Origin: Planctomycetaceae bacterium
GTDB lineage: Bacteria > Planctomycetota > Planctomycetia > Planctomycetales > Planctomycetaceae
DNA length: 64,000 nucleotides
Direction of reading: 5' to 3'
NCBI GenBank assembly: GCA_016795145.1
Contig: JAEUII010000188.1
Span: forward strand, 1-64,000
Under the pieces are notes generated by a model. That model made no database searches and was not told the DNA's origin. It saw only the letters and a list, made by a program, of their open reading frames with translations. A program made the translations under genes and the position numbers. Shown here piece by piece: positions 43,491 through 62,957 of the stretch. Each line of letters begins with the position of its first letter. The first letter of the stretch is position 1.

Positions 43491-45149
43491 ATGAAAAAGC
43501 TTGGACAAGTACTCGTGACGGCAATCGCCATCGCGGCACCGTTGTTCAGTCTGCCGGCAGTGTCAGCAGAAGATCCAACGAAGCTGGTGATGGAACAAAT
43601 TGCGAAAATGAAAGTGGGAAAGAATGACTGGCCCCAGTGGGGCGGCAGCTATTCCCGAAACAACACTCCGGAAGGCAAAAACATTCCTGTGAAGTGGGAT
43701 GTGAACACCGGGGAGAACATTCTTTGGTCAATGCCACTGGGCTCCGAAACCTACGGCAACCCGGTCGTTGCCAACGGTCAGGTTTACATCGGAACCAACA
43801 ACGGCAACGGCTACATCAAGCGTTATCCAAGCTCGGTGGACCTTGGCTGCCTTCTCTCCTTCAATGAGAAGGACGGAAAGTTCCTGTGGCAGCACAGCCA
43901 GGAGAAACTTCCAACCGGCCGAGTTCACGACTGGCCGCATCAGGGAATCTGCTGTGCTCCGTTCGTTGAAGGCGATCGAGCATGGTATGTCAGCAGCCGA
44001 GGCCTCGTGGTGTGCCTGGATACTCAGGGATTCCGCGATGGTGAGAACGACAGCCCGGTCGTGGATGAAAAAGTGTCCGATGAAACGGAAGCGGACGTCG
44101 TCTGGGTTCTGGACATGATGAAGGACCTGAACGTTTCACAGCACAACATGTGCAGCTGTTCTGTGACGTGCGTCGGCGATCTGCTGTTCGTGATCACTGG
44201 CAACGGGGTGGATGAAAGCCACATCACGATTCCGGAGGAGCGAGCTCCCAGCTTCATCTGCGTGAATCGAAACTCCGGCGAAGTGTTGTGGACGGACAAT
44301 TCCCCAGGAGCCAACGTGCTCCATGGTCAATGGTCCTCTCCAGCCTACGGAGTCTTCAAGGGCGTTGCTCAGGTGATCGTCGGTGGTGGTGACGGATACC
44401 TGTACGGTTTCGCTGCCGAAGGCAAAGATGGCAAAGGCGAATTGCTGTGGAAGTTTGACTGTAACCCAAAAGACTCGATCTACCTTCTCGGTGGTCGCGC
44501 GACTCGTAATCACCTGATTGCGACCCCGGTGGTTTACGACGGCTTGGTTTACGTTGGTGTTGGCGAAGACCCGGAACACGGTGAAGGCCAGGGACATCTT
44601 TGGTGCATCGATCCAACCAAGCGTGGCGACGTCAGCCCGACACTGGTTTACAATTCCAAGGACCCAAAGACGCCAATCCCACACAAGCGCCTTCAGGCAC
44701 TTGTGGACAAGGAAGGCGACTTCGAGCGAGAGAATCCGAATTCCGCTGCGGTCTGGCATTATGTTGGTGCAGATCCGGAAGTGTTCGAAACCACGATGCA
44801 CCGCACCTGCGGTACTGTCGCGATCAAGAACGACCTGCTGTACGTTGCCGACTTCAGCGGTCTGCTGCATTGCCTTGACGCCAAGACTGGCAAGCCTCAC
44901 TGGACTTACGACATGTTCGCAGCCAGCTGGGCTTCGCCTCTGATCGTCGAAGACAAGGTGTACATCGGCGACGAAGACGGCGATATCTCCATCTTCAAGC
45001 TGTCAGCCGAAATGGAAATGGTCGGCGAGAACAACATGGGTTCCTCGGTCTACACCACTCCGGTGATTGCCAACGACACAATGTTCATCGCAAACCGAAA
45101 TCGCATCTACGCGATCAAGGAAGGCGCAAGCAGCAAGCCTGCGAAGTAG
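43491..45149 (+). CDS. Secreted PQQ-like beta-propeller protein
   Basis: 552 residues. Signal peptide LGQVLVTAIAIAAPLFSLPA, then DWPQWGGSYSRNNTPEGKN, the usual entry to this family. W-containing blades recur (NEKDGKFLWQHS, NRNSGEVLWTDN, GELLWKFD, DAKTGKPHWTYD). It includes a Cys-rich CCAPF and MCSCSVTC, unusual for these proteins. Catalytic ligands for PQQ are not evident. It shares the operon with the preceding propeller and ends just before an intrinsic terminator at 45172. Confidence 0.9.
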   Translation: MKKLGQVLVTAIAIAAPLFSLPAVSAEDPTKLVMEQIAKMKVGKNDWPQWGGSYSRNNTPEGKNIPVKWDVNTGENILWSMPLGSETYGNPVVANGQVYIGTNNGNGYIKRYPSSVDLGCLLSFNEKDGKFLWQHSQEKLPTGRVHDWPHQGICCAPFVEGDRAWYVSSRGLVVCLDTQGFRDGENDSPVVDEKVSDETEADVVWVLDMMKDLNVSQHNMCSCSVTCVGDLLFVITGNGVDESHITIPEERAPSFICVNRNSGEVLWTDNSPGANVLHGQWSSPAYGVFKGVAQVIVGGGDGYLYGFAAEGKDGKGELLWKFDCNPKDSIYLLGGRATRNHLIATPVVYDGLVYVGVGEDPEHGEGQGHLWCIDPTKRGDVSPTLVYNSKDPKTPIPHKRLQALVDKEGDFERENPNSAAVWHYVGADPEVFETTMHRTCGTVAIKNDLLYVADFSGLLHCLDAKTGKPHWTYDMFAASWASPLIVEDKVYIGDEDGDISIFKLSAEMEMVGENNMGSSVYTTPVIANDTMFIANRNRIYAIKEGASSKPAK

Positions 45150-45171
45150 GCAGCTGCTCGGATCTCAAGAC

Positions 45172-45210
45172 AAAAGGCCGTCGCGTGAATTCGCGGCGGC
45201 CTTTTTTGTT
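45172..45210 (+). terminator. Intrinsic terminator after the PQQ-propeller operon
   Basis: Stem GGCCGTCGCG (45176-45185) pairs with CGCGGCGGCC (45192-45201) around TGAATT, then TTTTTT. The A-run before the stem makes it potentially bidirectional, which suits the convergent ATPase gene ending at 45240. Confidence 0.9.
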
Positions 45211-45239
45211 TCCGGATGACAATGACGGGCCTTTGCGTG

Positions 45240-46031
45240 TCAGGCCAGCTTCAGTACACGACGATTCAGGAGGTCTTCCTGAGGAGCCAGGTTGATTTCT
45301 CTCGCAAGCTGTCGAACGGTCGCTGTTGTGATCAGCGCAGTTGGCCATGCACGATGAAAGACCGCCATGACTTCGGCAAGTCGGCAGAGTGTTTGCATGC
45401 GGCCACGGCACATTTCCACTGCTGCGCGAACTCCGGCTTCTTCGCACACGGAGTACGAACATCCCAAACGTGGAAGCAGCTGACGCAGGAAGTCAGACGC
45501 TTCAACAGCATCGAGTCGTTCCAGAGAGACGGGGAAGGATACAGTCTGCGAGAGAATCTCAGGCAAGGAATCTGTACCGGCGGCGATGACCGTGACACCA
45601 CGCGTCATTCGGGCAATGGAGATCAGAAAACGGAGAAACGTCTCCTTGGAGAAGTCCGCGAGGTGTACGTCATCAAGCAGAATCTGAGTTGTCAGACCAC
45701 ACTGAGAACGTCCCTGAAACTCCGCTCGCAGAGACGACATCAGTTCATGCCGGGACATCGCCGGCCGCGCCTGTTCGCTCATTCGTTCCGCCAGCTGGAA
45801 CAGCGCTGATTCTTCCGTGGCTCCTGCCAGATTCAGCGAAACCGCCTGCAGCCCTGAACTCTGCAGTTCGGCAGCGAGTTTTTGCAGGACGCGCGTTTTT
45901 CCGGATCCCTGAGGTCCAGTCAGCAGTCCGCTCGATTCCCTCTGCTCAACCAGGTACAGCAAGCGGTTGACTGCTTCAACGTGTCCGGTGCTCTCAAAGA
46001 ACCAGGGGGTTATCGAATCCGGTCCAATCAT
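45240..46031 (-). CDS. ExeA-like AAA ATPase
   Basis: 263 residues from ATG 46031; a longer start at 46124 adds 31 unconvincing residues. Walker A GPQGSGKT, Walker B ILLDDVH, then sensor-1-like TVIAAGT. The N-terminus begins PWFFESTGHVEAVNRLLYLV, the entry helix of the ExeA/GspA and TniB-like group. Such ATPases serve secretion or DNA transposition assemblies; no partner genes are adjacent, so the role is open. Cytosolic. Confidence 0.8.
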   Translation of the reverse strand: MIGPDSITPWFFESTGHVEAVNRLLYLVEQRESSGLLTGPQGSGKTRVLQKLAAELQSSGLQAVSLNLAGATEESALFQLAERMSEQARPAMSRHELMSSLRAEFQGRSQCGLTTQILLDDVHLADFSKETFLRFLISIARMTRGVTVIAAGTDSLPEILSQTVSFPVSLERLDAVEASDFLRQLLPRLGCSYSVCEEAGVRAAVEMCRGRMQTLCRLAEVMAVFHRAWPTALITTATVRQLAREINLAPQEDLLNRRVLKLA

Positions 46032-46487
46032 GGGCTGTTCCGCAGTGAATTCACAAGAATCAGTTGAGGCGCTCGAGCCGGGTTCGTAACCGGGATTGCG
46101 AGCAGCCTGACCCACCAGCCCCAAAAAGGGCTCAGAGTCTTCCTGATCGGCGCAATCGGCAGAATTCGCTTAAGTTCATCAGCAAAAAGTCGGCATTCCG
46201 GGACATGGTACGAATTCGCAAATGCAGTCAGTTGATGAGTCTGCGGCTTTGGCCGCTTGACAGTCACTGTGGCAACACGTGCAATCCGTGTTCAGCGGTT
46301 TGACTTGCCCAATCGGGCCCTGACGGGTTGTTGAGTCCTCACGTGTCGCAACACGACACGTGGGTGGTGGACAAGAATCGCAATGATATCCCCATCAGCC
46401 CCTCGCTGATGCAACGGGTTGGGATAACATTCAATCGCTTTCAAAACCTCCGTTTGTCTTTCATTGAACCTTTGTCGCAGATAACGA
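46032..46487. other. Divergent intergenic region with a 9-bp-stem palindrome
   Basis: 456 bp between the ATPase gene (minus) and purM (plus). A perfect inverted repeat, CACGTGTCG-CAACA-CGACACGTG, lies at 46340-46362, about 125 bp before the purM start. It has no T-run and looks more like an operator than a terminator. Nothing else is recognised. Confidence 0.5.
46340..46362. promoter_or_regulatory. Candidate operator upstream of purM
   Basis: Perfect dyad of two CACGTGTCG arms around CAACA. The position between divergent genes and lack of T-run favour protein binding. The regulator is unknown; purR-type boxes have a different sequence. Confidence 0.4.
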
Positions 46488-47543
46488 ATGACTGAACTGA
46501 CGTATCGATCCGCGGGTGTTGATCTGGAACTCTATGAGCAGGCGATGCAGAAGCTGCCTCGGCTGATGCAGAGGACGTTTACTCCTGGAGTGATGGAACT
46601 TCCCGGCGGCTTTGCGGGGCTGTTTCGTCTCAACGCGGAACGCCAGTGGAAGGACCCTGTTCTGGTTTCCGGAACAGATGGTGTCGGCACGAAGATCAAG
46701 GTCGCGATCCATGCAGGTCGCTATTCCACGATCGGAATCGACCTCGTCGCAATGTGCGTCAACGACTGCCTGTGCCTGGGTGCTCAGCCACTGTTCTTCC
46801 TGGACTATGTGGCCCTTGGAAAGGACGACCCAATCCTGCTTGAGCAACTGGTTTCCGGTGTCAGCGATGGCTGTCGCCAGGCGGGAGCCGCGTTGCTGGG
46901 TGGTGAAACCGCCATCATGCCGGACCTGTATGCCGCCGGTGACTTTGACATGGCTGGCTTCTGTGTCGGTGTGGCCGAACGCGACGAACTGGTCGATGGC
47001 CGCTTCCGAGTTCAGCCCGGTGACGTTCTAATCGGAGTGCCATCTTCCGGATTCCATTCGAACGGCTACAGTCTTGTGCGCAAGGTTGTGTTTGAGCATG
47101 CGAAACTCACGGTGGATGACACCGTTCAGGAGCTTGGCTGCACCGTTGGTGATGCACTTCTGAAGCCGACTCGAATCTATGCTGACACTGTCGCGGCCGC
47201 GCGAAAGGCAGCGGGTGTTGAGAATCTTCATGCGATTGCTCACATCACCGGTGGCGGCATCGCCGACAACTTTGAGCGAGTTCTTCCGAAGCAGACTCAG
47301 GCCGTAATCCATCGTTCGGCATGGCAGATTCCTGCGGTCTTTCAGTGGCTGCAGAAGCTCGGCAACGTGGCTGAGTCTGAAATGTTCAGCGTCTTCAACA
47401 TGGGCATCGGACTGATTCTTGTCGTTCCGGAATCTTCTGCGAAGGCTGTCCAGACCGCTGTTTCAACACAGGAGTATCCAGCAGTGATCCTGGGAGAAAT
47501 TCGCTCACAGGAAGCAGAAGAGCCAACCGTCGTCGTCGAATGA
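46488..47543 (+). CDS. purM: Phosphoribosylformylglycinamidine cyclo-ligase (AIR synthetase)
   Basis: 351 residues, close to the usual 345. It makes aminoimidazole ribonucleotide from FGAM and ATP in purine synthesis. Motifs: SGTDGVGTK (61-69), the DLVAMCVNDCLCLGAQPLFF segment, LLGGETA and GLPSSG-like VPSSGFHSNGYSLVRKV; C-terminal HITGGGIADNFERVLP. Complete. No other pur gene is adjacent. Cytosolic. Confidence 0.96.
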   Translation: MTELTYRSAGVDLELYEQAMQKLPRLMQRTFTPGVMELPGGFAGLFRLNAERQWKDPVLVSGTDGVGTKIKVAIHAGRYSTIGIDLVAMCVNDCLCLGAQPLFFLDYVALGKDDPILLEQLVSGVSDGCRQAGAALLGGETAIMPDLYAAGDFDMAGFCVGVAERDELVDGRFRVQPGDVLIGVPSSGFHSNGYSLVRKVVFEHAKLTVDDTVQELGCTVGDALLKPTRIYADTVAAARKAAGVENLHAIAHITGGGIADNFERVLPKQTQAVIHRSAWQIPAVFQWLQKLGNVAESEMFSVFNMGIGLILVVPESSAKAVQTAVSTQEYPAVILGEIRSQEAEEPTVVVE

Positions 47544-47631
47544 TCCTGTCGCAGGAACGACGCAGAGACTGAGCGGTCGACGGTTCTGGTGAGAGACGGA
47601 AACCTGAAACGAAAGAATGTGAGGTCCCTCC

Positions 47632-48900
47632 ATGCTCAGAAGTTCTCGTCGAAGCCACCTGCGTCAAATTGCCGGCGCGGCGTCTGCAGCGTTTCTTCCG
47701 AATGCGCTGTGTTCAGCGGCATCACCCTTTGGCTCAACCGTCGACCGTGTTCCAAAGATCGCCGCCGTGGTGACGATCTATCGACCGTTTTCGCACTCTG
47801 ACGTCATCCTTGGAAAGATCCTGGAAGGCTGGAAACAGGACGGGGGTCCCGGACCTGGTTTGAAGCTGGTTTCCATGTACGTTGACCAGTTCCCATCCGA
47901 CGATATGGCGCGGAAGATGTCGGCGAAGCACAATGTGCCGATCGTCGATTCCATTGAAAAGGCGATTACTCTCGGCGGCGATTCCGTGGCCGTCGATGGC
48001 GTGCTGAGCATCGGTGAGCATGGAGATTACCCGTTCAGCAAACTTGGACAGCAGCTTTACCCACGGCGTCGATTCTTCTCGGAGATCGCAGCGACGTTTG
48101 AGAAGTTTGGCAAGGTCGTGCCGGTCTTCAACGACAAACATCTGGGACCCGCCTGGGAAGACGGACTGTGGATGTGGAATCGGGCCAAAGAGCTTCGGAT
48201 TCCGTTCATGGCAGGTTCTTCAATGCCTGTGGGTTACCGAAAGTCCGACGTTCTGCTTCCGATGAACAGTCCCATCGAAGCCGCAGTGGGGATCGGCTAT
48301 AGCGGGCTCGACGTCTACGGTTTCCATGCTCTGGAGTTTCTGCAATGGCATCTTGAACGACGCCCTGGTGCTGAGCAGGGTGTCAAGAATGTGCAGTGTC
48401 TTCAGGGCGAGAGACTCTGGAAGGCGGTCGATGACGGAACTGTGCCGGTCGATTTGCTGAAGGAAGCGTTCGCCGCGATCCCGGGCTCAACCGGTGTCGA
48501 TATGCGAACCGACAAAAATGCCACGGCGTTCCTGTTTGAGTATCACGATGGTCTGAAAGCCGCACAGTTCATGTTTCAGTGCGTCGCTGGCACCGGCTGT
48601 GCACTGCGAATCAAGGGGCAGCCGACCTACACGAACGTCTTTGATGAACGCACCGAGCCGATGTATCCTCATTTCGCCTATCTGCTCAAAGCCATCGAGC
48701 GAATGATGCACACGGGCAAGCCAACGTATCCGGTTGAACGCACCGTTCTGACGGGCGGTGTTCTGGATCGCGCACTTACCTCGCTGGCCGCGGACGGCAG
48801 GAAGCTGGAAACTCCGGAACTGAGCATCTCCTATCGACCGATCGATTATCCGTTTGCTCAGCACGTCGACCTGCTCACACCGCCCTACGGCCAGCTGTAA
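47632..48900 (+). CDS. Tat-type secreted protein of unknown function
   Basis: 422 residues. N-terminus SSRRSHLRQIAGAASAAFLP resembles a Tat signal. The mature part starts VPKIAAVVTIYRPFSHSD, then SIGEHGDYPFSKLGQQLYPR, GSSMPVGYR and YSGLDVYGFHALEFLQ. It resembles a planctomycete group of secreted proteins that are distant from Gfo/Idh/MocA oxidoreductases but lack the glycine-rich NAD motif. No catalytic residue can be assigned. It follows purM by 88 bp but is functionally unrelated. Confidence 0.65.
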   Translation: MLRSSRRSHLRQIAGAASAAFLPNALCSAASPFGSTVDRVPKIAAVVTIYRPFSHSDVILGKILEGWKQDGGPGPGLKLVSMYVDQFPSDDMARKMSAKHNVPIVDSIEKAITLGGDSVAVDGVLSIGEHGDYPFSKLGQQLYPRRRFFSEIAATFEKFGKVVPVFNDKHLGPAWEDGLWMWNRAKELRIPFMAGSSMPVGYRKSDVLLPMNSPIEAAVGIGYSGLDVYGFHALEFLQWHLERRPGAEQGVKNVQCLQGERLWKAVDDGTVPVDLLKEAFAAIPGSTGVDMRTDKNATAFLFEYHDGLKAAQFMFQCVAGTGCALRIKGQPTYTNVFDERTEPMYPHFAYLLKAIERMMHTGKPTYPVERTVLTGGVLDRALTSLAADGRKLETPELSISYRPIDYPFAQHVDLLTPPYGQL

Positions 48901-48925
48901 TCAGGCCTCAGTGAAGGCGAGCGGC

Positions 48926-48956
48926 AGAGTGTCAACCCTCCGAGTCAACTCTGCAA
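48926..48956. terminator. Weak hairpin between convergent genes
   Basis: GCAGAGT (48926-48932) can pair with ACTCTGC (48950-48956) over a 17-nt loop, between the stop at 48900 and the convergent stop at 48965. No T-run; a weak bidirectional terminator at best. Confidence 0.3.
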
Positions 48957-48964
48957 AGCCCAGT

Positions 48965-50077
48965 CTATTTCTGCGCTGGCTTTAGTGGTTTCGCAAGTTG
49001 CTTCTCAAGCCACTTGTACGCTCGCTCTCTCACATCATCGGGAAAGTCATGCGCACAGTCCGGGTATTCAGCGACAAGTGAATTATCCGAAACGCCAGCG
49101 ATGGACAGCAGAGGACGAACCTCGGCAATCACCTTTCGCACTCCCTGATTGTCGAAGTTGTCGTCATTAAGCGGCGCGTTGACGAAAATGGCGCGAGGAA
49201 CAATCGCTGCAAGGATTTCGGGAAAATCGAACGGCACCTTGTCGGGATCGTTCCCGTAGATCTCACGGATTCGAGGCATGTAGCGATCGCTCGTCCAGCC
49301 CTGCAGGTTGCCCTTGTAGTAGTCATGGAATCCTGTGAACCCGCAGCTTGTCACCACGGCACGGATTCGCTGGTCAAATGCTGCCGTGAACAGCGTGTTA
49401 TGCCCGCCAAGAGAATGGCCGATGCAGCCGATGCGTGATGGATCGACTTCCTTCATTTCACACAGCAGATCGACCGCTCTAATGTTGTTCCAGATCGCCT
49501 TCATGGAACCGCTGGCGTAGTGTTTCCCCTGTGTCCTGAAGTCATACGGATAGTCACCAAACGAAGGGTAATCCGGGACCAGACACACAAAGCCTCGCGC
49601 GGCCAGTTCCTTCGCGTAATGCAGATTCTCCAGCCCGCCGAGCCCTGCTGGTTCGCCTTTGCCGATCCCCGTGGTCTGATGAAGACACAACATCGCTGGG
49701 GAATCTGATGCGATCGACTTCTTCATCATCACCAAAGCGGGAACCCGGTCGCCCTCTTCAGGAGCAAACGTGATCCTGCGGAGAATCACACCGTCAGATT
49801 CCGATTCACTTTCAATCTTCACATCCAGCGGACATCGTCGATCCGACGACGGCAATTCTCCCATGGCCTTTTGCATGCCCAGCAGCGTATGAGTCCGACG
49901 CAGCAGCAAGTCGTCCATCGACTTGATCGGCTGTTCGTGGCCATCCCTGCAGACAACACTGACCTTCGTATGGTCATACTTCGCAGCAGAGCTTTCATCA
50001 CCTGGCGGTTGAGCTGCAAACACCGCGGCCAATACACCGATCCCGAAACTCCCCACCACCCACATCGCGCGAATCAT
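48965..50077 (-). CDS. Secreted alpha/beta hydrolase
   Basis: 370 residues from ATG 50077, which opens the signal peptide MIRAMWVVGSFGIGVLAAVF. Nucleophile elbow GHSLGG with Ser in CIGHSLGGHNT; catalytic His probably in CAHDFPDD; acid in the APLNDDNFDN region. It resembles acetyl-xylan esterase/dienelactone-hydrolase type enzymes of planctomycetes. Substrate unknown, probably a carbohydrate or lignocellulose ester. Single gene. Confidence 0.85.
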   Translation of the reverse strand: MIRAMWVVGSFGIGVLAAVFAAQPPGDESSAAKYDHTKVSVVCRDGHEQPIKSMDDLLLRRTHTLLGMQKAMGELPSSDRRCPLDVKIESESESDGVILRRITFAPEEGDRVPALVMMKKSIASDSPAMLCLHQTTGIGKGEPAGLGGLENLHYAKELAARGFVCLVPDYPSFGDYPYDFRTQGKHYASGSMKAIWNNIRAVDLLCEMKEVDPSRIGCIGHSLGGHNTLFTAAFDQRIRAVVTSCGFTGFHDYYKGNLQGWTSDRYMPRIREIYGNDPDKVPFDFPEILAAIVPRAIFVNAPLNDDNFDNQGVRKVIAEVRPLLSIAGVSDNSLVAEYPDCAHDFPDDVRERAYKWLEKQLAKPLKPAQK

Positions 50078-50206
50078 CAGCGGATCCTCCGAAAGACGCG
50101 CTGATTCTGCTCTGTGTCGCCGGTGAGTCAAGCCTGAGCCAGACTCGACTGTTGCACGTGCCTTATCGGCAATCGAGGATCCTTGCGGCTACTGCGGTAG
50201 ATTCCA

Positions 50207-51181
50207 CTAAACCGGCTTTGCCGACAACCCACAGGCTTCGCGCACGCGGGCGACGACCTGCTGGCACTTGGCTCGCGCAACACGGGCTCCCTGGACCAGA
50301 ATATCCTCAACGTCAGCCGGACGTTTTTCCAGATCCGCTCGGCGTTCGAAGGCCGTACCGAAATGCTGCATGGCGGCTTCGTACAGAGTCTCCTTTGCGG
50401 CACCGTAGCCCATTCCTCCAGCACGATAGCGCGCTGCCAGTTCCTGCTGCTGTTCGGATGTGCCGAAGAGCTTGTACAACTGAAACACCGCACAGGTGTC
50501 CGGATTCTTAGGAGCTTCCATCGGTGTCGAATCGGTTTGAATCGACATGATCAGCTTTCGAAGCTTCTTCGGAGTTTCGAAGATCGGGATCGTGTTGTTG
50601 TAGCTCTTCGACATCTTCTCGCCGTCAGTCCCGGGGACCTTTGCCGAGTCATCCAGGACGTACGGTTCCGGCAGAACGAGGGATTCACCATAGAGCTGAT
50701 TGAATCGCTGCGCCAAGTCACGAGTAACTTCAATGTGCTGAATCTGGTCGGCACCGACGGGCACATGAGTACTGTCGTAGCCGAGGATGTCGGCGGCCAT
50801 CAGAACCGGGTACGTGAACAGTCCGGCATCTGCGGCGATCCCTTTGGCTTTCTTGTCCTTAAACGCATGACATTTCTCGAGCAGGTGCATCTGAGTGATC
50901 GTCATGAGCAGCCATGTGAGTTCCGTGACTTCCGGAACATCCGACTGGCGAAACAGCGTTGCCTTTGATGGTTCCAGTCCCAGTGCCAGCAGATCGAGCG
51001 CAGCGTCAGCCACGTTTTGCCTCAGCACCGCTGGCTCACGGACCGTCGTCAGCGCATGAAGGTCGGCGATGAAGTAGAACGACTGTTCGTTGCCCTGCAG
51101 CGCGATGTACTGACGGATGGCCCCGAAGTAGTTGCCCCAGTGAAATCGTCCGGTTGGCTGAATCCCAGAAAGAACCTTCAT
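50207..51181 (-). CDS. trpS: Tryptophanyl-tRNA synthetase
   Basis: 324 residues from ATG 51181. Class I signatures: [13 protein letters not shown] with the HIGH-like HWGN at 14-17, and KMSKS at 189-193. It charges tRNA-Trp. Its start overlaps the end of the upstream ATPase gene by four bases (ATGA), so the two are translationally coupled. Length is normal for bacterial TrpS (about 330). Cytosolic. Confidence 0.97.
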
Positions 51182-52050
51182 AGAAAGCAAATTCCCTGCT
51201 CGGTGATTTGATACGGCATGATGTCTTCAGAGCACGCACTGCCTCGGTGTTTTGCCACGTACAGGGCCCGCCCGATTTTTGTCTCGTTCCGAATCTTACC
51301 CATCATGATGATCGTATTGGCGTTCGACAAAATGTCCCCGGAACGAATTGGACGTGAAATCAGATCATCCAGCATGACTTCATGACTGGTGTAAAGGAAC
51401 AAGCCACCGATGCTGCGGCAATCGTATGCGTGAGCATTGATGGTCGGTTCCTGAGCACGAAAGTGGACTCGGAACAGATCGCGGGCCAGCCAGTCGTGAT
51501 CCTTTCGAAGGACCTGATGGTAGACGTAATCAAACAGATGAAACTGGAATGAGTCAGAGTCCTGATTGGTCGGTTCGACACCATCGATTACACAACGGCG
51601 GACACCATGGACAAAGTTTCCGTAGAAGAAGGCAATCGTCTGATCCAGCCGGCGCATGAGGTCGGCTTTGAATTCCTGCCACTCTTCCGGCTGCATGTCA
51701 CCAATGGTGACTCGACGACCGCCGCGAGTAAACACGTGCAGATAATCGGAACGAACCTGAGCGGCGTCCCAGACCGAGGCTGGATCAAAATGGTCGACGA
51801 ATGTTCGTTCTGACATCTGCCAGCCAAACATCCTCTTTGCATACTCAGACTGGTTTTGGCTGTCCCCGCGAGTCGTCAGGTCGAAGATGATTCCTCGCTG
51901 GCCTTCCTGAGCAAGACCGGACTGACAGTAGCTCAGTCCCAGCTGCGTCTTGCCAATGCCGGTCGCGCCCATGACCACTGTCAGAGTTCCTGGCAGCAAC
52001 CCTCCTCCGAGCGCTTCGTCGAGTTGTGGAATTCCGGTCGATTGTCGCAT
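51178..52050 (-). CDS. KaiC-like RecA-superfamily ATPase
   Basis: 290 residues from ATG 52050. Starts [20 protein letters not shown], the classical KaiC-domain entry, with Walker A GATGIGKT (28-35) and a Walker B-like [10 protein letters not shown]. Single KaiC domain, no second repeat, so it is not a clock protein; such ATPases are usually of unknown role or act as regulators. It overlaps trpS by 4 bp. Confidence 0.85.
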
Positions 52051-52490
52051 CGTCAATTCAGCTTCGAGCAGTGAGCATCAGTTCAAATTGTGGAAGGGAG
52101 CGAACGATAGCGAGGTTTAGCGGAGATTTCACAGAATCAGCCAGAAGTTCCCATCGACTACACAGTTTTGCCCTGAAACGACCTCGTCGCCTTCACAGTG
52201 ACAGCCCGGCCTGCGGTGTGGTTCGTGGTTCGACGGACAAGCATCTGACAGGGTTACCGAATGATCCCCCTGTTTTGAATTGCCACAAGCAGAATTGATC
52301 ACCCCTGCAGAATTCCGCATGGTGCATCGGCCAACTTGCAGAAAACACGACACAGAACCTTCAAAACTCCGCTGATTTTGGCATTCACCAAAGAAATCCG
52401 ACGGTGCGAGATTTCGGCACGTTGGTTGCATTTAGTGGAGTCCGGTGAATGAAGTGAGTCATGGCCCGCCTCACCTCAAAAACCTCGGAA
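52051..52490. other. Intergenic region, possible small RNA before an orphan terminator
   Basis: No credible gene on the plus strand, yet a strong plus-strand intrinsic terminator follows at 52491. A short RNA ending there would explain it; a promoter cannot be placed with confidence. I searched by eye for RNase P, SRP and tmRNA signatures and did not see them. Confidence 0.35.
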
Positions 52491-52522
52491 GCGACCAGAT
52501 CACTCTGGTCGCTTCTTTTTTT
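52491..52522 (+). terminator. Orphan intrinsic terminator
   Basis: GCGACCAGA (52491-52499) pairs perfectly with TCTGGTCGC (52504-52512) around TCAC, followed by TTCTTTTTTTT. No coding region on the plus strand precedes it within about 450 bp. Confidence 0.85.
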
Positions 52523-52638
52523 GCGCCAGTGTAGAGCCGTTGTCCCCAACTGCTTGTTGTTTGTGCCAGTGTAGAGCAGTTGTCCCCAACTGCTTGTTGT
52601 TTGTGCCAGAATAGAGCAGTTGTCCCCAACTGCCTCGT
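52523..52638. repeat. Three-copy 40-bp tandem repeat with a hairpin in each unit
   Basis: Units at 52523-52562, 52563-52602 and 52603-52638 (last one shortened). Units 2 and 3 hold the hairpin CAGTTG-TCCC-CAACTG, and unit 1 a one-base variant. It starts immediately after the orphan terminator and lies about 320 bp before the DUF4175-like gene. Confidence 0.85.
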
Positions 52639-52956
52639 GCCCCACATAGCCGAATCGAACACCAGCGGAGCATGGCCCGGAAGCCCGCCGCGTCGGCATC
52701 CCGCCAGCGCTCAAACCCAAACGTTCAACCCCAATTGTCACTTGCATTTATGTGCGAAATACGGGGAAAATGCCGCTCGTGATTTGGGATCGTGCGTGAG
52801 CACGATCCAGCAGCAGACGGATGCCCACTCATGGTCTGCTGGTCCGCATTCACAGCGAGAAACTCGCTCCCCTGCAGGGCGCATGATTCGAACGAATGCC
52901 AGTGCTGTCTTGAACTGCGTAGTTTGAAACTCGAACCTCGATATTGGAGTCGAGCG
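52639..52956. other. Upstream region of the DUF4175-like gene
   Basis: 318 bp with no credible gene. An open frame continues upstream of the chosen start to 52792, but it lacks protein-like composition. The real start at 52957 has TTGGAG just upstream. Confidence 0.4.
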
Positions 52957-55900
52957 ATGTCCGGCTTGTATCTCGAACGGAAGCTCCAGGCAGTCAGCCA
53001 GCGTCTTCAGAAGGTCCGAATCCTTCGGCGCCAAGCGCTTGTCTGGTTGCTGCTGCTGATCCCAGCCATCGCAGTCACTCTGTACCTGCCTCGCCGAGAA
53101 GGTGCGATTGGACCTGAAGTTCCGGTGGTGCTGATTGCCACTCTTCTTGGAATTAGCCTCTCCCGCGTTCTCGCGCGTCGCCCGTCACTCAACGAAGCCG
53201 CTCGCCTGATCGAACAGGCCGACAGTGAAGTAAACGATGCGGTACTCACTGCCGTCGAAGTCATGCAGACTCCCGCGAAGCAATCGTCGGTCCTGGCCGG
53301 AATGGCCGTGATGGATGCCGAGAAACTCGCGCGACAGCGCGACTGGTCGGCCGCAGTTCCAGGTCGACAAATCGCTGGCTGGACGGTTCTCAGCTTTCTG
53401 ACATTCCTGCTGATGGCCTCCAGCGTCACCGCCGCCAGCCGATTCGTTCGAACGCCTGCCACTTCAGATGCAAATACAGCCAAAGCAGAAGCGGACTCCG
53501 AAAAGAAGCCGCCGGTAACAGAGCTGGTGATCGAACCAGGTAACACAGAAATTGAATTGGCCACGGCGCTGACGGTCGTCGCAAAATTCCCGGGCACCGT
53601 TCCGCAAAAGGTTGTGCTGGAGTTTGAGGATGCAAAGAAGCAGGTTCGTCAACTCTCCATGACCGAGACGGTCGATGTGGGCGTCTTCGCAGCACGAATG
53701 GAGGAGATCACGTCAGACGGAGTTTACCGGGTCCTGTATCTGGAAACGGAAGACTCTTCTGCGACTCAACCGAACCGATCTCCGGACTATCTCGTGAAGA
53801 CATTCGTCCGCCCCCGCCTGGAACAGATCGACGCAACCGTCACACCTCCGCACTGGACTCGAAAGTCCGAAGAGACCATTGAGGATATTGCCAGAATTAC
53901 AGTCACGGAAGGCTCCTCCGTTGTGTTCCGTTTTCAACTGAACAAACCCGGGGTGAAGGCGGAGCTCCGTTCCGAAAATGAAGCCGCTATTCCGCTCACG
54001 GTATCTGCCAGCGATCCAACCGTCGTGGAATCCAACCAGGTGGTGAAAGCAAATCACTCGTGGACAATCCATCTGACGGACGCAGAAGGCCGAACGGCTG
54101 CCGATGAGGAAACACTCACCGTCAAAGTCACACGCAATCAGCCGCCAGTCATCAAGCCCACTTTCCCGGGCCGCGACGTCAATGTTTCGGCGCTCGAAGA
54201 GTTTCAGATCGAAGCCAGCGCGAAAGACGACTTTGAGCTTCTGGATTACGGAATTGAGTATTCACTTTCCGGAAGTGAGCCCGTCAACGTCAGCACCAGG
54301 ACCACCATCGCAGAAGGTGCCAGCGCGGGCACTGGCGACATCGAAACGGCAGCAACGATTTCGGGGCAGATTCAGCTCGAGACCATGAATGCGGCTCCCG
54401 ATGATCTTGTGACTTACAGTTACTGGGCCAAAGACTATGCGTCAGACGGAACCGTGCGAACCACGTACAGCGATTTGATGTTTGCGGAAGTTCGTCGATT
54501 TGAAGAGATCTTCCGTGAAGGTCAGCAACAGGGTCAGCAGCAGCAACAACAGCGTCAACAGCAACAGCAGCAACAACAGCAGCAGCAAGGCGGGGCGGCG
54601 GACGAGCTTCTGAAAGTGCAGAAGGAAATTCTGTCGGCCACCTGGAATACTCTGCAAACCGAAGCGATCAAGCGGGACGCGGGAACGTTCAGCGAAGACG
54701 TGGGCGTCATCGCAGAATCGCAGGGCCAGCTCATTCAACAACTCCAAAGTACCCTCGCTGAACGAGAAATGACTCCGGAAATTCAGGCGCTGGCCACGGC
54801 GGCTGCGGACCTGATGACTCAGGCTCAGAGTCAGCTTCAGGAAGTCCGCGACGGCAAAGAAGGGACCACACTGCGAAACGCGATGGCAACAGAAAGCCGC
54901 ATCCTCGCCGCGCTGTATCGAATGCGTGAAGCCGAATACAACGTTCAGCGCCAGCAGCAACAGGGTGGCGGTGGCGGAGGAGGTGGCGGCAGCGCATCGG
55001 CTCAACAGCAGCTTCAGCAGCTGGAACTGGACAATGAACGCAACCGCTATGAGTCCGAGCGTCAGGCTCAGCAACAGCAGGAAGCGAACTCAGCACAGCG
55101 TGAGGAGCTTCAGATCCTGAACCGCCTGAAAGAACTGGCTCGCCGGCAACAGATGGTGAACGAGCGATTGAAGCAACTCGAATCTGAATTGCGAGCTGCT
55201 CAGTCGGACAAAGAGAAGGAAGAAATCGAACGAGAACTCAAGCGACTTCGGGACGAACAGCGAGACTTGCTGCGTGATACGGACGATGTCGCCGAACGCA
55301 TGGAACAGTCGCAACAATCCCAGCAGTCTCAGCAGCAGCAGCAGTCTCAGCAATCCCAGGAGTCGCAGGGTGCGGATCGGGAGCAAATGCAGCAGGAGAT
55401 TCAGGAAGCTCGAAATAACGTTCAGCAGGCATCCAGAGCTATGGATGAAGGACGGTTGGCGGAAGCGATTTCGGAAGGGACTCGCGCTGAGAGACAGTTT
55501 GATGATCTGAAGGAAGACTTCCGAAACCAGACATCGAATCGCTTCGACGAAGCGGCTCGGGACTTGCGTGATGAAGCAAGAGAACTGGCAGATCAGCAGG
55601 AAAAGATCGCTCGTGAACTGTCAGGTGAATCCGAGGGAGACGATTCCAAATCAAAGAGCCCTTCGCTCCGGTCAGAGCGGAAGAAAGAAGATGTCGAACA
55701 GAAACTTCAGGACCAGCAGGATCGCCTGAATAAGATCGTTGAAGATTCAAAGAAACTGATCGAACAGGCCGAGGAGACGGAACCGCTTTTGTCGAGCCGG
55801 TTGTACGACGCCGTTCGCGACCTGAAAGATTCAAAGCCAGAAGAGGCCCTCGAAGCGGCCGAAATGCTTGCAGGCCGTGGCTTGTGGCCTCAAACCCAGG

Positions 55901-56802
55901 AAGCGGAGCAACAGGCTCGCAAAGGGATTGAGCGGCTGCGAGAAGGCATCGAGAAAGCTGCCGATGCCGTCGTCGGTAGTGAAGCCGAATCTCTGCGTCG
56001 CGCGCAGGAGCAGCTCGAGGGAGTCACGGAACAACTCGCTAACGAAGTTCGCAACGCGACTGGCGAGGAGACTGAGAACGGGCAACAACAGAACGGGCAA
56101 CAACAGAACGGGCAACAACAGAACGGGCAGCAACAGAACGGGCAGCAGCAGAACGGACAGCAGCAGAACGGACAGCAGCAGAACGGACAGCAGCAGAACG
56201 GACAGCAACAGAACGGACAGCAACAGAACGGACAGCAACAGAACGGGCAGCCGCAGAACGGGCAACAGCAGAACGGGCAACAGCAGAACGGGCAGCCGAA
56301 GAACGGGCAACAGCAGAACGGGCAGCCGAAGAACGGGCAACAGCAGAACGGACAACAACAGAACGGACAGCGTTCTGCCTTGATGAATGGCGGCCGTGAG
56401 AGCAACGGCGGCTTAGGGGCTAACAACACTCCCGGCCAGCCTTTGACTGGCAATGAGTTTGGTCAATGGTCTGATCAACTGCGTGATGTTGAAGAGATGC
56501 TGGACGATCCGGAGCTGCGAAACCGAGTTGCCCAGGTTCGTGATCGAGCTCGAGCCATTCGCTCGGAATTCAAACGCCACGGAACCGAGCCTCAGTGGGA
56601 TCTGGTCAAGTCTCAACTGCTTGGCGAACTTCAATCACTTCAGCAAAGAATCGCGGAAGACTTGCAGAAGATGAAGTCGGACCGAGCCATGGTGCCAATC
56701 GATCGCGAGCCGGTGCCGGAAGAGTTCGATTCGATGGTTCAGCGTTATTACGAATTACTGGGCCAGGAACGGCTGAAGGATGAGCCAGCCGGAAAGAAAT
56801 AG
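52957..56802 (+). CDS. DUF4175-like membrane-anchored coiled-coil protein with NGQQQ repeats
   Basis: 1281 residues from ATG 52957 (TTGGAG before it). N-terminus with hydrophobic segments at about 28-45, 54-69 and 140-160, then Ig-like beta repeats (about 180-500: VTPPHWTRKSEE, FQIEASAKDDFELLDYGIEY), then long coiled coils (about 520-1040) with Gln runs. A block of 19 NGQQQ-type pentapeptides (DNA 56077-56361) and a conserved C-terminus (to 1281) follow. DUF4175 proteins are envelope proteins of uncertain role. Its N-terminal LIEQADSEVNDAVLTAVEVM segment resembles that of the minus-strand gene at 59858. Confidence 0.8.
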   Translation: MSGLYLERKLQAVSQRLQKVRILRRQALVWLLLLIPAIAVTLYLPRREGAIGPEVPVVLIATLLGISLSRVLARRPSLNEAARLIEQADSEVNDAVLTAVEVMQTPAKQSSVLAGMAVMDAEKLARQRDWSAAVPGRQIAGWTVLSFLTFLLMASSVTAASRFVRTPATSDANTAKAEADSEKKPPVTELVIEPGNTEIELATALTVVAKFPGTVPQKVVLEFEDAKKQVRQLSMTETVDVGVFAARMEEITSDGVYRVLYLETEDSSATQPNRSPDYLVKTFVRPRLEQIDATVTPPHWTRKSEETIEDIARITVTEGSSVVFRFQLNKPGVKAELRSENEAAIPLTVSASDPTVVESNQVVKANHSWTIHLTDAEGRTAADEETLTVKVTRNQPPVIKPTFPGRDVNVSALEEFQIEASAKDDFELLDYGIEYSLSGSEPVNVSTRTTIAEGASAGTGDIETAATISGQIQLETMNAAPDDLVTYSYWAKDYASDGTVRTTYSDLMFAEVRRFEEIFREGQQQGQQQQQQRQQQQQQQQQQQGGAADELLKVQKEILSATWNTLQTEAIKRDAGTFSEDVGVIAESQGQLIQQLQSTLAEREMTPEIQALATAAADLMTQAQSQLQEVRDGKEGTTLRNAMATESRILAALYRMREAEYNVQRQQQQGGGGGGGGGSASAQQQLQQLELDNERNRYESERQAQQQQEANSAQREELQILNRLKELARRQQMVNERLKQLESELRAAQSDKEKEEIERELKRLRDEQRDLLRDTDDVAERMEQSQQSQQSQQQQQSQQSQESQGADREQMQQEIQEARNNVQQASRAMDEGRLAEAISEGTRAERQFDDLKEDFRNQTSNRFDEAARDLRDEARELADQQEKIARELSGESEGDDSKSKSPSLRSERKKEDVEQKLQDQQDRLNKIVEDSKKLIEQAEETEPLLSSRLYDAVRDLKDSKPEEALEAAEMLAGRGLWPQTQEAEQQARKGIERLREGIEKAADAVVGSEAESLRRAQEQLEGVTEQLANEVRNATGEETENGQQQNGQQQNGQQQNGQQQNGQQQNGQQQNGQQQNGQQQNGQQQNGQQQNGQQQNGQPQNGQQQNGQQQNGQPKNGQQQNGQPKNGQQQNGQQQNGQRSALMNGGRESNGGLGANNTPGQPLTGNEFGQWSDQLRDVEEMLDDPELRNRVAQVRDRARAIRSEFKRHGTEPQWDLVKSQLLGELQSLQQRIAEDLQKMKSDRAMVPIDREPVPEEFDSMVQRYYELLGQERLKDEPAGKK
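56077..56361 (+). repeat. 19-unit 15-bp coding tandem repeat (NGQQQ type)
   Basis: Nineteen 15-bp units encode NGQQQ, NGQPQ or NGQPK. Units differ mainly at synonymous positions (GGG/GGA, CAA/CAG), and adjacent units share the same variants, as expected from recent slippage or unequal exchange. Confidence 0.95.
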
Positions 56803-56908
56803 CCGTTCACAATGAAACTCGTGCGGTAGTGGATCTTGCTAAAGATCCCATTGTCGCAGCACCTCGCGCAAAGTCCTCGCCCCGAAATTCAAAACGCAAC
56901 GAAGTACA

Positions 56909-57838
56909 CTACCGCGCCTCCACATTTTCTGAACTGACTGGTCCCAGATGCCGGTCCAGCCATTCGACGGAGGCAAAACGTCCAAGAGCCCAGCGGAATG
57001 ATTCCAGTGGTTTCTGAAGCTCATCCTCACCAATGTCCTTCATCCCATTCAGGGAATGAAACCCATCGATGTCGAGTGTGACGGTCCAGTGTTCCGCGCG
57101 CTGAAACTGCATCATTCGATCCTGAACTCGGCGAGCCCAGATCAGTCCATAGCACGTCTGAAAACGCAGCCAGACCTGATTCATTCGCTGATGCGTCGAG
57201 ACTTCTTTCAGGGCCTTGTCATCCCAGCGTCGCAGTTCGTACAACAGCATTCGGGAACCCCACACCAGCAGGAACGGAGTCAGAAGCGGCATCCAGTGAA
57301 AGGAAGGACTCAGGCACGGCCAGACGCAGCAAAGGACCGCGATCAGGTGAACCAGGGCCGGTGCCGTCGCAGCGGTCCCCATGCCCGGGGCCGCACTCAT
57401 CACGGTCACGAGACAGAAACCTGCCATGGCAGGGCCGCTCAGCTGGATCGAATCTCGTCCGTGGCTGTTCACAACCTGAGAAAGCCCCGGCCAGAACAGA
57501 ACAAAGATCAAAGGCAGGACAACAAACCACTGCCACGGCCCCGCCCCCGGCTTTCGTGCGCCCAGCGTACAAACCTGAGGAGTCAGAAGCAGAATACTGC
57601 TGACATATTGAAATGCAGAGACCCATCCTTCAGTCAGGTACGAACCTTCCAGAGACATTGCCAACAGGCAGAGAATCTGCCCAGCCAGTGCGACAGCAGC
57701 CCAGTACCACGAATAAATGATGACAAGTCCATTGATCACGCGGCGCAACTGAACCATCTGCCAGACGAGCAGCAGAAGGCAGCCCGCAGCGGCGAGATAC
57801 ACAAAGGGTGGGGCAGGCAGGACGGCCAGTGATTGCAT
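56909..57838 (-). CDS. Multi-pass membrane protein of unknown function
   Basis: 309 residues from ATG 57838; an in-frame ATG at 57880 adds 14. About seven hydrophobic segments cover residues 10-210 (YLAAAGCLLLLVWQMV, IIYSWYWAAVALAGQILCLL, FVVLPLIFVLFWPGL and others), then a soluble C-terminal part with LDIDGFHSLNGMKDIGED, which superficially recalls the metal site of GGDEF proteins but lacks the GGDEF motif. I do not recognise the family. It is convergent with the DUF4175-like gene. Confidence 0.7.
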   Translation of the reverse strand: MQSLAVLPAPPFVYLAAAGCLLLLVWQMVQLRRVINGLVIIYSWYWAAVALAGQILCLLAMSLEGSYLTEGWVSAFQYVSSILLLTPQVCTLGARKPGAGPWQWFVVLPLIFVLFWPGLSQVVNSHGRDSIQLSGPAMAGFCLVTVMSAAPGMGTAATAPALVHLIAVLCCVWPCLSPSFHWMPLLTPFLLVWGSRMLLYELRRWDDKALKEVSTHQRMNQVWLRFQTCYGLIWARRVQDRMMQFQRAEHWTVTLDIDGFHSLNGMKDIGEDELQKPLESFRWALGRFASVEWLDRHLGPVSSENVEAR

Positions 57839-58140
57839 TTCAATGCGCACAAAGCTGATGAAGCGAAACACGCGGAACACAGCTCCGACAGTCTACCGAG
57901 GGCAATGTCAGGGGGAACGATGCTCTCGTGTTTTTCCAAATTGGCGGGCAACCCGGAACCCGTTCGGCTGCAGGAGTGTCCCATAAAGTCAGGTTATTCG
58001 GATTGTGACTGACATGCCGTTTCAGAACCGGTATTTCGCGGTGTCCGAGTTGCCATGGCACTCAGGATGTCATACCGATGTGGAATAATCTGACTGAGTC
58101 CAGTCGACTCGCTCCGCGTGTCCCCAAGGTAACAACTCGC
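57839..58140. other. Divergent promoter region upstream of hisB
   Basis: 302 bp between the membrane-protein gene and hisB. No gene or strong hairpin. A plus-strand frame extends hisB upstream to 58078 but without family similarity. Confidence 0.4.
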
Positions 58141-58734
58141 ATGCCCAGAACAGCTTCCATCGTCCGAAACACGGCTGAGACACAGATCGAACTAACCCTG
58201 AATCTCGATGGCTCCGGCATTGCTGATATTTCAACCGGCGTCGGTTTCTTCGATCACATGCTGACGTTGCTGGCAAAGCATGCTCTGTTTGACCTGAAGG
58301 TTCATGCCACGGGCGACCTTCATGTTGATCATCACCACACGGTTGAAGATGTCGGCATTTGCCTGGGACGCTGCCTGCTGCAGGCACTGGGTGACAAGAA
58401 GGGAATCTGCCGATACGGCCACATGACTCTGCCGATGGAAGAGACTCTCGTTACCACGGCCGTTGACCTGAGCGGGCGGATTGCGTTCATCTGGAAAGTT
58501 CAGTTTCCGACCGAGAAGATTGGTGTGTTCGACACGGAACTTGTTCAGGAATTTTGGACGGCGGTTTCTTCAAATGCTCTGATGAATTTCCACGTCCTGC
58601 TTCATCACGGCACGAACAGCCACCACATCTCTGAAGGGATTTTCAAGTCCGCTGCGCGATCACTTCGGATGGCGACCAGCCAGGATCCTCGGCAGACCGG
58701 CGTTCCTAGTTCCAAAGGAACGCTGACTGGCTGA
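58141..58734 (+). CDS. hisB: Imidazoleglycerol-phosphate dehydratase
   Basis: 197 residues from ATG 58141, the usual length of monofunctional HisB. It removes water from imidazoleglycerol phosphate in histidine synthesis, with Mn bound by histidine clusters: [13 protein letters not shown] (about 39-51), [14 protein letters not shown] (about 60-73), and [16 protein letters not shown] near the C-terminus. Complete. No other his gene nearby. Followed by map after 211 bp. Confidence 0.96.
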
Positions 58735-58945
58735 CCCCGGGCACATCGGAATCGGCAGGCCAGTTTGTCACGGAAATGGCCGCAGAATCTCGACGGAACA
58801 GGTTCGGAATTGAGATTGCCGGTCGAATTGCCCTGGAATTGTCTGCCCCGATTGACTTGATTGTGCCAGGCGCAATAATCGCGTTCCTTTCGACGGCCTG
58901 CTGTGTAAAGCCGGGCCCAAGACCTGTCCCGAATGGAAAGATCCC

Positions 58946-59752
58946 GTGTCAGCGCTCAAGAAAACCATCCCGCTGTACCTCAGCGAAGAAGAACGAAACG
59001 GTCTTCGCGCCGCGGGACGATTCAACGCGCAGCTCATGGACTTCCTGCGGCCTCATGTTGTGGAAGGTGTCTCCACGGACAAGCTTGATAAGCTCGCCTA
59101 TGACTACACGATTCAGCATGGCCACAAGCCGGCGTGTCTCGGATACAAAGGCTATCCCAGGACGATCTGTACCAGCGTCAACGAGGTCGTGTGTCACGGC
59201 ATCCCGAATACTCGCCCTTTGAAAGATGGCGACATCATCAACGTCGACATCACAACGATTGTCGACGGCTGGTATGGCGATCAGTCAGAGACATTTCTGA
59301 TCGGCAACATCAGCGCTGCAGCTCGCAAGCTGGTTCAGACAACGTTCGATTCACTCTGGATTGGTATTCGAGCCTGCAAGCCGGGATGCACGGTCACTGA
59401 AATTGGCCGAGCTATTCAGGCCTATGCAACCAAAGGCGGATTTTCAGTCGTCCGTGAATACCAGGGACATGGCATCGGCCGTGACTTTCACCAGGAACCT
59501 GGCGTCCCGCACTTCCCGTCGCTGAATTCGAACCGCGATATCCTTCGCCCCGGCACCTGCTACACGATTGAGCCAATGTTGAACATTGGCACGTGGGAAA
59601 CTCGGGTCGACAAGAAAGACAAATGGACCGTCCGCACAAAAGACGGAGCACTGTCAGCGCAGTTCGAGCACACGATTCTGATGACCGAAGAAGGTCCTGA
59701 GATTCTGACGCTCACTAAGAATGGACCGCAGGAAGGCCATTCGTTCGGCTAA
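58946..59752 (+). CDS. map: Methionine aminopeptidase, type I
   Basis: 268 residues from GTG 58946, with GGAAAG upstream. Removes the initiator methionine. Metal ligands D101, D112, H175, E209 and E241 are all present ([39 protein letters not shown]), and H84 in VCHGIPN is the catalytic site entry. The N-terminal extension of about 25 residues lacks the zinc-finger domain of eukaryotic type I. Cytosolic. Confidence 0.97.
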
Positions 59753-59857
59753 TGCCTGTTACTCGCGCGGCCGATTTCCGACAGGGCGAGAGGAATCGCG
59801 AGGCTCAGAACAGTGAGTGACGACTATTGCCATCACTCGCTGTTCAATTCAGCTCGA

Positions 59858-61345
59858 CTACTTCTGACCTTCAGATTTTTCGTTAACCGCGTCCATTTCC
59901 GAGCCTGTCGGTCGAATCAGCTCGAAGTACTTGCGAATGGTCTGGCGGTGTCCGAGCGGAATTGATTCTGACTCCAGTGCTGATTCGCTAAGAGCTTCGT
60001 ACTTGTCCGCATTCTGCTGGTACTGACGAACTGCTTCCTGAGTTTGTTCGGGGGCTGTTTCATTTTCAGTTTCTGAATCACCCTGTCCGGAATCAGTGCC
60101 GGTCAGCTTCATTTCTTTCTGTGTCTTGTTGCGAGCAGTCTTTTCTCCCTGAGGATTGCCGCCAGACCCTTTTCCAGCCTTCTTGCCGCCTGGCTTATTT
60201 CCCTGAGCCACCATTCGGCATTCACTCTCGCACTCCGACTTGCACTCACTCAGACACTGGCACTGCTTCTTCAGGAGGTCAGCCAGTTTCTTCTTCTGAC
60301 CCTGCTTCTTGCATTCTGAGGCAAGTGATTTTGCACCATCCTGAAACTTGCTCTTGTCACCAGAACTTACACCCTGGGCCATTTTTTGAGCCGCATCCTT
60401 GATTGCCTCGCTGGATTTCTTTGCCCCTGCGTTCTTCTGTGCCTGGTCAAGCTTTTCTGTGACGGCCTTCTGAGTCTTTCGATCCATCTCCGGCGTTTCA
60501 AGCTTTGAAAGTTCCTGAGCCGCCTTGTCCATTTCCCCCTTCGACAGAGCCTCGCCAGCCGACTGCATGGACTCAGACAATGACAGTGCTTCGCCGATTT
60601 CCTTTAGAGTCGCTTCGGATGACTGTTCCTGAAGTTGCTGCTGCATAGCCTGTAGTTCAGCTTCCATCGCTGAGAGCTTTGCCAGTGCTTCCTTGGGGTC
60701 GCCCGAGTGTTCCTTCAACCCTTTCAGTTCCTTGTTCATTTCCTTCAGGAGCTTCTCCAGCTCCGGATCTGCTTCTTCTTTCTGAAACTGCTCCAGTTCG
60801 GCAAGGCTCTCAGCAGCGCGGTCCGCCTGCTCAGCAACCACAGCATTTCCTTCTTCCCCGGCCTGCAGCGGCTGGGCGGGCGTTGCCACAAAGATCAGGA
60901 AGATCGCAACAACGGAACTCACCAATCCCCATCGCCACATTTTGGGTTCAGCGACAGGAGCAATCTTCTGCACATCAATCGCGCTGAGGTGAGCTTCCGT
61001 ATCTTCAATCTGAAGTCTTCGCACCGAATCATCAGAAGGGCTGGCCAGAAACTGAAGCGCTGTCTGAACACGATCCTTCAACTGACATTCATGGTCAATC
61101 AGTCGGGCAGCAGACTGCTCAGACTTTGATTTTGAAAACGCATACGCCATCGAAACAGCAACGGGCGTAAAGACGCTGACGGGTACCCAGTACCATCCAA
61201 AGCCCGCATGCGTTGCAACCCTAAGAAGCGCAGTGGCACATCCGAGCATTCCCCCGGTCAACATCCCACCTGCGGCACAGTGCCACAGCCATTGCATTTG
61301 CTGTCGTTCACGAACCTCTTTGACACGGCTCTGAATCGTATTCAT
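59858..61345 (-). CDS. Membrane-anchored coiled-coil protein with Cys cluster, related at N-terminus to the DUF4175-like protein
   Basis: 495 residues from ATG 61345. Hydrophobic segments at about 20-45, 55-70 and 135-155 (GLVSSVVAIFLIFVATP), followed by coiled coil (about 170-345). A cysteine cluster QCQCLSECKSECESEC sits near 365-380 and a Lys/Gly/Asn-rich linker after that. Between the second and third segment is SAARLIDHECQLKDRVQTAL, which aligns with EAARLIEQADSEVNDAVLTA of the gene at 52957. No known enzymatic motif; probably a structural envelope protein. Confidence 0.7.
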   Translation of the reverse strand: MNTIQSRVKEVRERQQMQWLWHCAAGGMLTGGMLGCATALLRVATHAGFGWYWVPVSVFTPVAVSMAYAFSKSKSEQSAARLIDHECQLKDRVQTALQFLASPSDDSVRRLQIEDTEAHLSAIDVQKIAPVAEPKMWRWGLVSSVVAIFLIFVATPAQPLQAGEEGNAVVAEQADRAAESLAELEQFQKEEADPELEKLLKEMNKELKGLKEHSGDPKEALAKLSAMEAELQAMQQQLQEQSSEATLKEIGEALSLSESMQSAGEALSKGEMDKAAQELSKLETPEMDRKTQKAVTEKLDQAQKNAGAKKSSEAIKDAAQKMAQGVSSGDKSKFQDGAKSLASECKKQGQKKKLADLLKKQCQCLSECKSECESECRMVAQGNKPGGKKAGKGSGGNPQGEKTARNKTQKEMKLTGTDSGQGDSETENETAPEQTQEAVRQYQQNADKYEALSESALESESIPLGHRQTIRKYFELIRPTGSEMDAVNEKSEGQK

Positions 61346-61891
61346 CGGGAGTCCCCAGGCCACATGATTCCAGCGAGACGCCTGCTGTGGCTCTTGAATT
61401 GAAACTACGCGGATCAGCACCACTTCCGTTGCCTCGGAGACCTCAGTGATCTCCCCTGGGGATAGTATCGGCTCAACATGCCTTTGACCAGAGCCTTCCA
61501 GGATGGTCTGTGCAAATCACCAGTGGAATTGACCGGTTGAAAACTCTGCTTCCCCGAAAGGAATGGCGGGAAAACACTGCCAGAGAACGTTGTGTGAAGA
61601 ATGTCGCATTTCCAGTGGCCAGGTTTTGTGACTGGAATACAACGATGCAGACAGGAAGTCGATTCGCGAATCTTCTACCGCATTTTCGGACAATGGCCGC
61701 TTTTCGTTTTCGTTGGATGTCATACCAAAGTTTGTCGTCCCGCAACGATTGCTTCGCTGGCTGTTCGAGTTTCATGAGATGAGCCTGCCGGATGTCACGG
61801 CGAGCTCGCAGCTTTCAAACGTTCTCGTTTTCCGGGGTCTTCGTACGTCCCGACGGGAACATATTCGATCAACAGTGCAAGGATTGTTTCA
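61346..61891. other. Intergenic region upstream of the fasciclin gene
   Basis: 546 bp between a minus- and a plus-strand gene. No credible gene: an open frame at 61510-61782 has no protein-like composition. No strong hairpin or repeat recognised; promoters for both genes should lie here. Confidence 0.4.
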
Positions 61892-62872: not shown

Positions 62873-62903
62873 TCCGTCAGATTCCGCAGGAACGAAATGG
62901 TGA

Positions 62904-62936
62904 GGGGCGATGTGTGTTGCACATCGCCCCTTTTTT
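62904..62936 (+). terminator. Intrinsic terminator after the fasciclin gene
   Basis: Stem GGGGCGATGTG (62904-62914) pairs with CACATCGCCCC (62920-62930) around TGTTG, then TTTTTT. It may also terminate the convergent kinase-like gene ending at 62958. Confidence 0.92.
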
Positions 62937-62957
62937 CATTTGCACAGGCAAACACTT

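Follow-up and report, generated by a model that had tools for sequence, protein, structure and literature searches.

Downstream of a stretch of DNA without a convincing gene, a strong intrinsic terminator runs directly into three short hairpin repeats, which raises the question of whether the locus encodes a small RNA, carries a mobile unit that includes the terminator or combines two unrelated features. We addressed this question in a stretch of 64,000 nucleotides, here called the window. The terminator (52487..52522, plus strand) has a stem of 13 pairs over 52487-52516 with a 4-nt loop, TCAC, an inner stem of 12 perfect pairs (52488-52499/52504-52515) and a tail of seven T residues at 52516-52522. 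Stem, loop and T7 tail are those of intrinsic (rho-independent) terminators, but the hairpin differs from these in that no convincing same-strand gene precedes it. The first-pass annotation, which had placed a plus-strand terminator at 52491-52522, was right about its existence and strength and put its start 4 nt too late. Three plus-strand hairpins with at least 13 pairs and a T-rich tail were present in 44001-64000, this terminator among them. A scan of the whole window, with open frames as a proxy for genes, gave 12 strong terminator candidates; 6 of the other 11 start 10 to 113 bp past a same-strand open frame of at least 200 aa, and the remaining 5 lie 858 to 2310 bp from such a frame. 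Among the three candidates with a perfect stem, the two others lie 10 and 113 bp past a frame and the terminator studied here 1519 bp, and this distant frame is probably spurious because it is antisense to a longer frame (50207-51190, minus strand).

The gap before the terminator (52057..52486, no strand assigned), a candidate small-RNA or gene-relic region, measures 430 bp from the minus-strand gene at 51178-52056 to the hairpin. The earlier estimate had been about 450 bp without a gene; the nearest gene boundary is 430 bp away. Neither of the two open frames in the gap matched Pfam, and peptides of 52057-52956 gave a best match of only E 0.07 against open frames of the congener loci that carry the flanking genes. 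The minus-strand gene (51178..52056) encodes a KaiC/RecA-type ATPase (Pfam PF06745; ATPase, KaiC). The plus-strand gene on the other side (52957..56802) is DUF4175-like, with a match to PF13779 (E 3.6e-6) of 25.7 bits, below the cut-off of 27.3; its product carries a long NGQQQ repeat run near the C-terminus (window about 55890-56360).

Directly behind the terminator lies a head-to-tail array of three 40-bp units with REP copies (52517..52636, plus strand), the first of which overlaps the T tail. The units (52517-52556, 52557-52596 and 52597-52636) have a period of exactly 40 and are 100, 93 and 83% identical to unit 1, confirming the three 40-bp hairpin repeats that had been reported right behind the terminator. 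Their palindrome is of the type GTAG-AGCAGTTG-TCCC-CAACTGC. Copy 1 (52531..52554, plus strand; GTAGAGCCGTTGTCCCCAACTGCT) has one stem mismatch, copy 2 (52571..52594, plus strand; GTAGAGCAGTTGTCCCCAACTGCT) has a perfect 8-bp stem, and in copy 3 (52611..52634, plus strand) the tag has decayed to ATAG and the outermost stem pair is lost. The core GCAGTTGTCCCCAACTGC was matched 3 times in the window with up to 2 mismatches, versus 0.01 matches expected from shuffles, and as single-stranded DNA the three units fold into a hairpin (z of -4.2, -6.2 and -5.9). The window copies, for which position was read, sit between open frames that are likely to be genes.

The core recurred at other loci of the window's genome, and at each of the seven further loci inspected it formed a palindrome preceded by GTAG or a close variant (ATAG, GTTG or GCAG). 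A genome-wide count of the repeat, proposed by the first-pass annotation as a check, yielded 289 core copies with a strict pattern (GTARANCNNYTGTCCYCARNNGNT; 141 on one strand, 148 on the other) and 0 with the reversed control. In the 43 distinct copies with flanks at hand, the three free stem pairs were Watson-Crick in 42, 42 and 43 copies, with two or three pair types per position, and stems were perfect in 41. The tag was GTAG in 36 of these copies and GTAA in 7, the pattern itself demanding GTAR. Among the 100 copies listed of the 289, 69 had a neighbour within 300 bp; the 32 pairs within 100 bp in this set comprised 21 head-head (GTAG outside), 7 tail-tail and 4 tandem pairs, so that 28 of 32 were inverted, the window array itself being tandem. 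At one other locus (L010, about 1525-1595), a second type of GTAG-tagged hairpin (GTAGTGGATCTCGCCAGAGATCC) adjoins a copy of the window REP.

These repeats are GTAG-tagged REP elements with a TCCY loop, since their tag, palindrome, copy number, covariation and paired arrangement match the description in the text of PMC3733652 (Di Nocera et al. 2013). According to that text, GTAG REPs share a GTAG foot outside a palindrome of 6-13 bp, complementary stem changes and hundreds of copies, as well as head-head dimers and an association with RAYT genes. It also names Planctomycetes among the bacteria with GTAG REPs, R. baltica having several families. From that paper without its consensus figure, the TCCY-loop family could not be assigned to any of the 24 published GTAG REP families, and it may be among them; the literature searched gave no description of it outside that figure, which may list it. 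The family is of a known kind and apparently an undescribed member. The usual arrangement of REPs is head-head, and the head-to-tail 40-bp tandem of the window is unusual.

Since the repeats abut the terminator, and the first overlaps its T tail, terminator and repeats might form one mobile unit, as the first-pass annotation had considered in proposing that the terminator is part of a mobile repeat. By BLAST against the window's genome, however, similarity at other loci was limited to the repeat and excluded the terminator, which is single-copy in that genome at BLAST sensitivity. None of the other repeat loci inspected contained the terminator hairpin, and its arm occurred in no other locus fetched. 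In four settings of side and direction, terminators lay beside 1, 5, 2 and 1 of 43 REPs, versus 9, 3, 6 and 7 of 693 random positions in a control that included genic DNA. The idea of a mobile repeat therefore stands for the 40-bp repeats and fails for the terminator, which did not recur with the repeat at any locus read, and a single unit comprising both is extremely improbable.

A search of the genome collection for the exact 23-nt core returned 56 stretches, belonging to 13 assemblies by accession prefix and titled Pirellula, Pirellulaceae, Planctomycetaceae or Planctomycetota. Of 170 genomes retrieved for the order, 5 contained the strict pattern, each of them a member of the same family (289, 30, 4, 1 and 1 copies, the last single copy having a poorly paired stem), and 17 other genomes of the genus gave no match; this distribution rests on one strict pattern, which degraded or variant copies escape. 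Eight congener loci (L171, L172, L173, L174, L175, L181, L182 and L184) carry transposases related to that of locus L084, described below, flanked by other GTAG hairpins, mostly on both sides. By this one pattern, REP types are seen in the sequences to turn over fast between species, given 289 copies here versus none in 17 congeners and the different GTAG hairpins there.

A Y1 profile built from the Y1 transposases of the genus was run over the 56 core-bearing loci and detected Y1-type open frames in three of them (L084, L060 and L093). In L084, which belongs to another genome, a 233-aa transposase of the Y1/REP type is flanked on each side by the REP together with a partner REP in inverted orientation. 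At 27.2 bits the protein exceeds the Pfam Y1_Tnp cut-off of 23, and it scores 65.7 bits, below the cut-off of 80, against NCBIfam NF047646 (REP-associated transposase). It resembles the REPtrons and their RAYT (TnpA-REP) as outlined in PMC6006769 in exceeding the Y1_Tnp cut-off and in lying between head-head REPs; it differs in falling under the NF047646 cut-off, and the window's genome yielded no REPtron that carries this REP. In L060, the frame for a relative of the L084 protein (70% identity over 183 aa) comes after three REP copies and runs off the locus, and the Y1-type frame of L093 lies more than 2 kb from the repeats. From its position between the REPs, the L084 protein is the likely cognate transposase of the window REP.

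In the draft genome of the window itself, no RAYT flanked by the window REP turned up, and the two best-matching relatives of the L084 transposase there are bordered by other repeats. The seven stretches with the 8 Pfam Y1 matches of this genome yielded one window-type REP, at a distance of about 2.9 kb from the gene; the scan was restrictive and recovers a single one of the three copies in the window. The cognate gene of the window's genome has therefore been lost, is unassembled or was missed. In the same genome, L170 and L179 (contigs C61 and C237) hold transposases of the L084 type, each bordered on both sides by direct copies of its own, different hairpin repeat.

We then considered which transcription unit the terminator might serve. 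A strong terminator without a preceding gene points to a plus-strand transcript that stops here or did so in the past, and beyond this the small RNA proposed by the first-pass annotation has no positive support; conservation, folding and Rfam gave none. Together with the terminator in its gene-poor gap, 52380-52522 folds at a z of -4.17, as a lineage-specific plus-strand small RNA transcribed from the gap and ending at 52522 might. This low value is due to the terminator hairpin: without it, z was -1.18 (52380-52486), and the preceding 320 nt (52060-52379) gave +1.56. Conservation of the leader, which had been suggested as a check, was not found, 20 relatives containing no similar DNA. The 169 other genomes of the family gave a single 39-nt match, at chance level, in a search that scored only three candidates per genome and may thus miss weak homologues. 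Rfam at gathering score gave no match in the whole window, and a permissive search of 52000-52800 returned STnc240 (24.1 of 55 bits) and CsrC (14.1 of 61 bits), both far under their cut-offs. No sigma-70-like promoter was found in 51000-54000, a negative result that says little because the scan yields fewer sites than shuffles in the surrounding 20 kb. A structured or conserved small RNA is not supported, since the leader is without homologues, the one chance-level match apart, and outside the hairpin folds no better than shuffles. Species-specific RNAs need not be conserved in sequence or structure, and a lineage-specific small RNA, to which the REP hairpins would be incidental or a back-up, is a doubtful reading, although less so than the other alternatives. 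That the REP hairpins were kept behind such an uncharacterised RNA as back-up terminators or 3'-end protectors is distinctly improbable.

The terminator might instead be the end of a decayed gene, with 52380-52418 as a stub of a glycosyltransferase-like 3' end and a stop at 52452, 35 nt before the stem. In one family member, a 482-aa frame on the same strand is identical to these 39 nt at 33 positions, at the 3' end of its coding sequence (L210 1501-1537; the name glycosyltransferase-like was assigned by eye), and the alignment score to this tail exceeded 100 of 100 block shuffles, because the tail contains the 39-nt match itself. However, the E-value of 7.2e-4 translates into an expectation of about 0.12 matches of this kind across the 169 genomes, the match breaks the reading frame, and its extension to either side was reached by 25 and 52 of 150 shuffles and by 66 of 150 random window segments. 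The other 26 gene tails were unremarkable, 2 to 73 of 100 shuffles matching their scores; within the genus the protein was partially matched only in one genome (G021), the window's genome having none. Viral contigs scanned with a pattern derived from the 39-nt match gave nothing. The glycosyltransferase stub was inseparable from chance, and we consider a decayed gene of this kind unlikely. Being upstream of the DUF4175-like gene (52957-56802) and on the same strand, the terminator could also act as a conditional attenuator in the leader of that gene, but the gene starts 435 bp downstream, beyond the REP array. Of 14 congeners, only 4 had plus-strand terminator-like sites within 1 kb upstream, the distances differing from that seen here, and congener upstream DNA was without similarity to the window leader at E 0.1, which leaves an attenuator very improbable.

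The neighborhood of the flanking genes bears on what the terminator may once have served. Strong matches to the ATPase (76-84% identity) came from 14 further genomes of the genus, and the N-terminus of the DUF4175-like protein was absent beside it in the 14 congener loci, with a reach of up to 1.5 kb upstream; one of these loci (L135) begins inside the gene, with nothing visible upstream. In the reverse search, the ATPase was present in 0 of 16 loci of the DUF4175-like gene. Both genes occur in 12 congeners, always on different contigs. Since they lie on different contigs there and are never adjacent in the flanks, the ATPase/DUF4175-like junction looks lineage-specific by this comparison. In two congeners (L196 and L200), a terminator stands ahead of the DUF4175-like gene, about 30 nt past the end of a plus-strand frame.

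We conclude that the locus probably combines two independent features side by side, a REP trimer and a separate, ordinary-looking, single-copy intrinsic terminator. The terminator would most likely have ended a plus-strand unit since lost or moved away in this lineage, having arisen, as in L196 and L200, close behind a plus-strand frame; the main alternative for it would be a short, unconserved transcript. The REP would be a short non-autonomous repeat that depends for its spread on a REP-associated HUH/Y1 tyrosine transposase (RAYT), an enzyme that would act on the single-stranded hairpin and its GTAG foot, and the trimer may have grown by local tandem duplication after a REP inserted directly behind the terminator. 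Against this reading of two independent features, a RAYT gene lies close by in no more than 2 of the 56 loci with the core (between copies in L084, beside them in L060), none flanked by the REP turned up in the window's genome, the head-to-tail tandem departs from the usual arrangement, and no lost gene was identified among the gap peptides. With the terminator set apart from them, the repeats can be assigned to a known class, and the transposase of L084 is their likely cognate enzyme, which makes the family testable.
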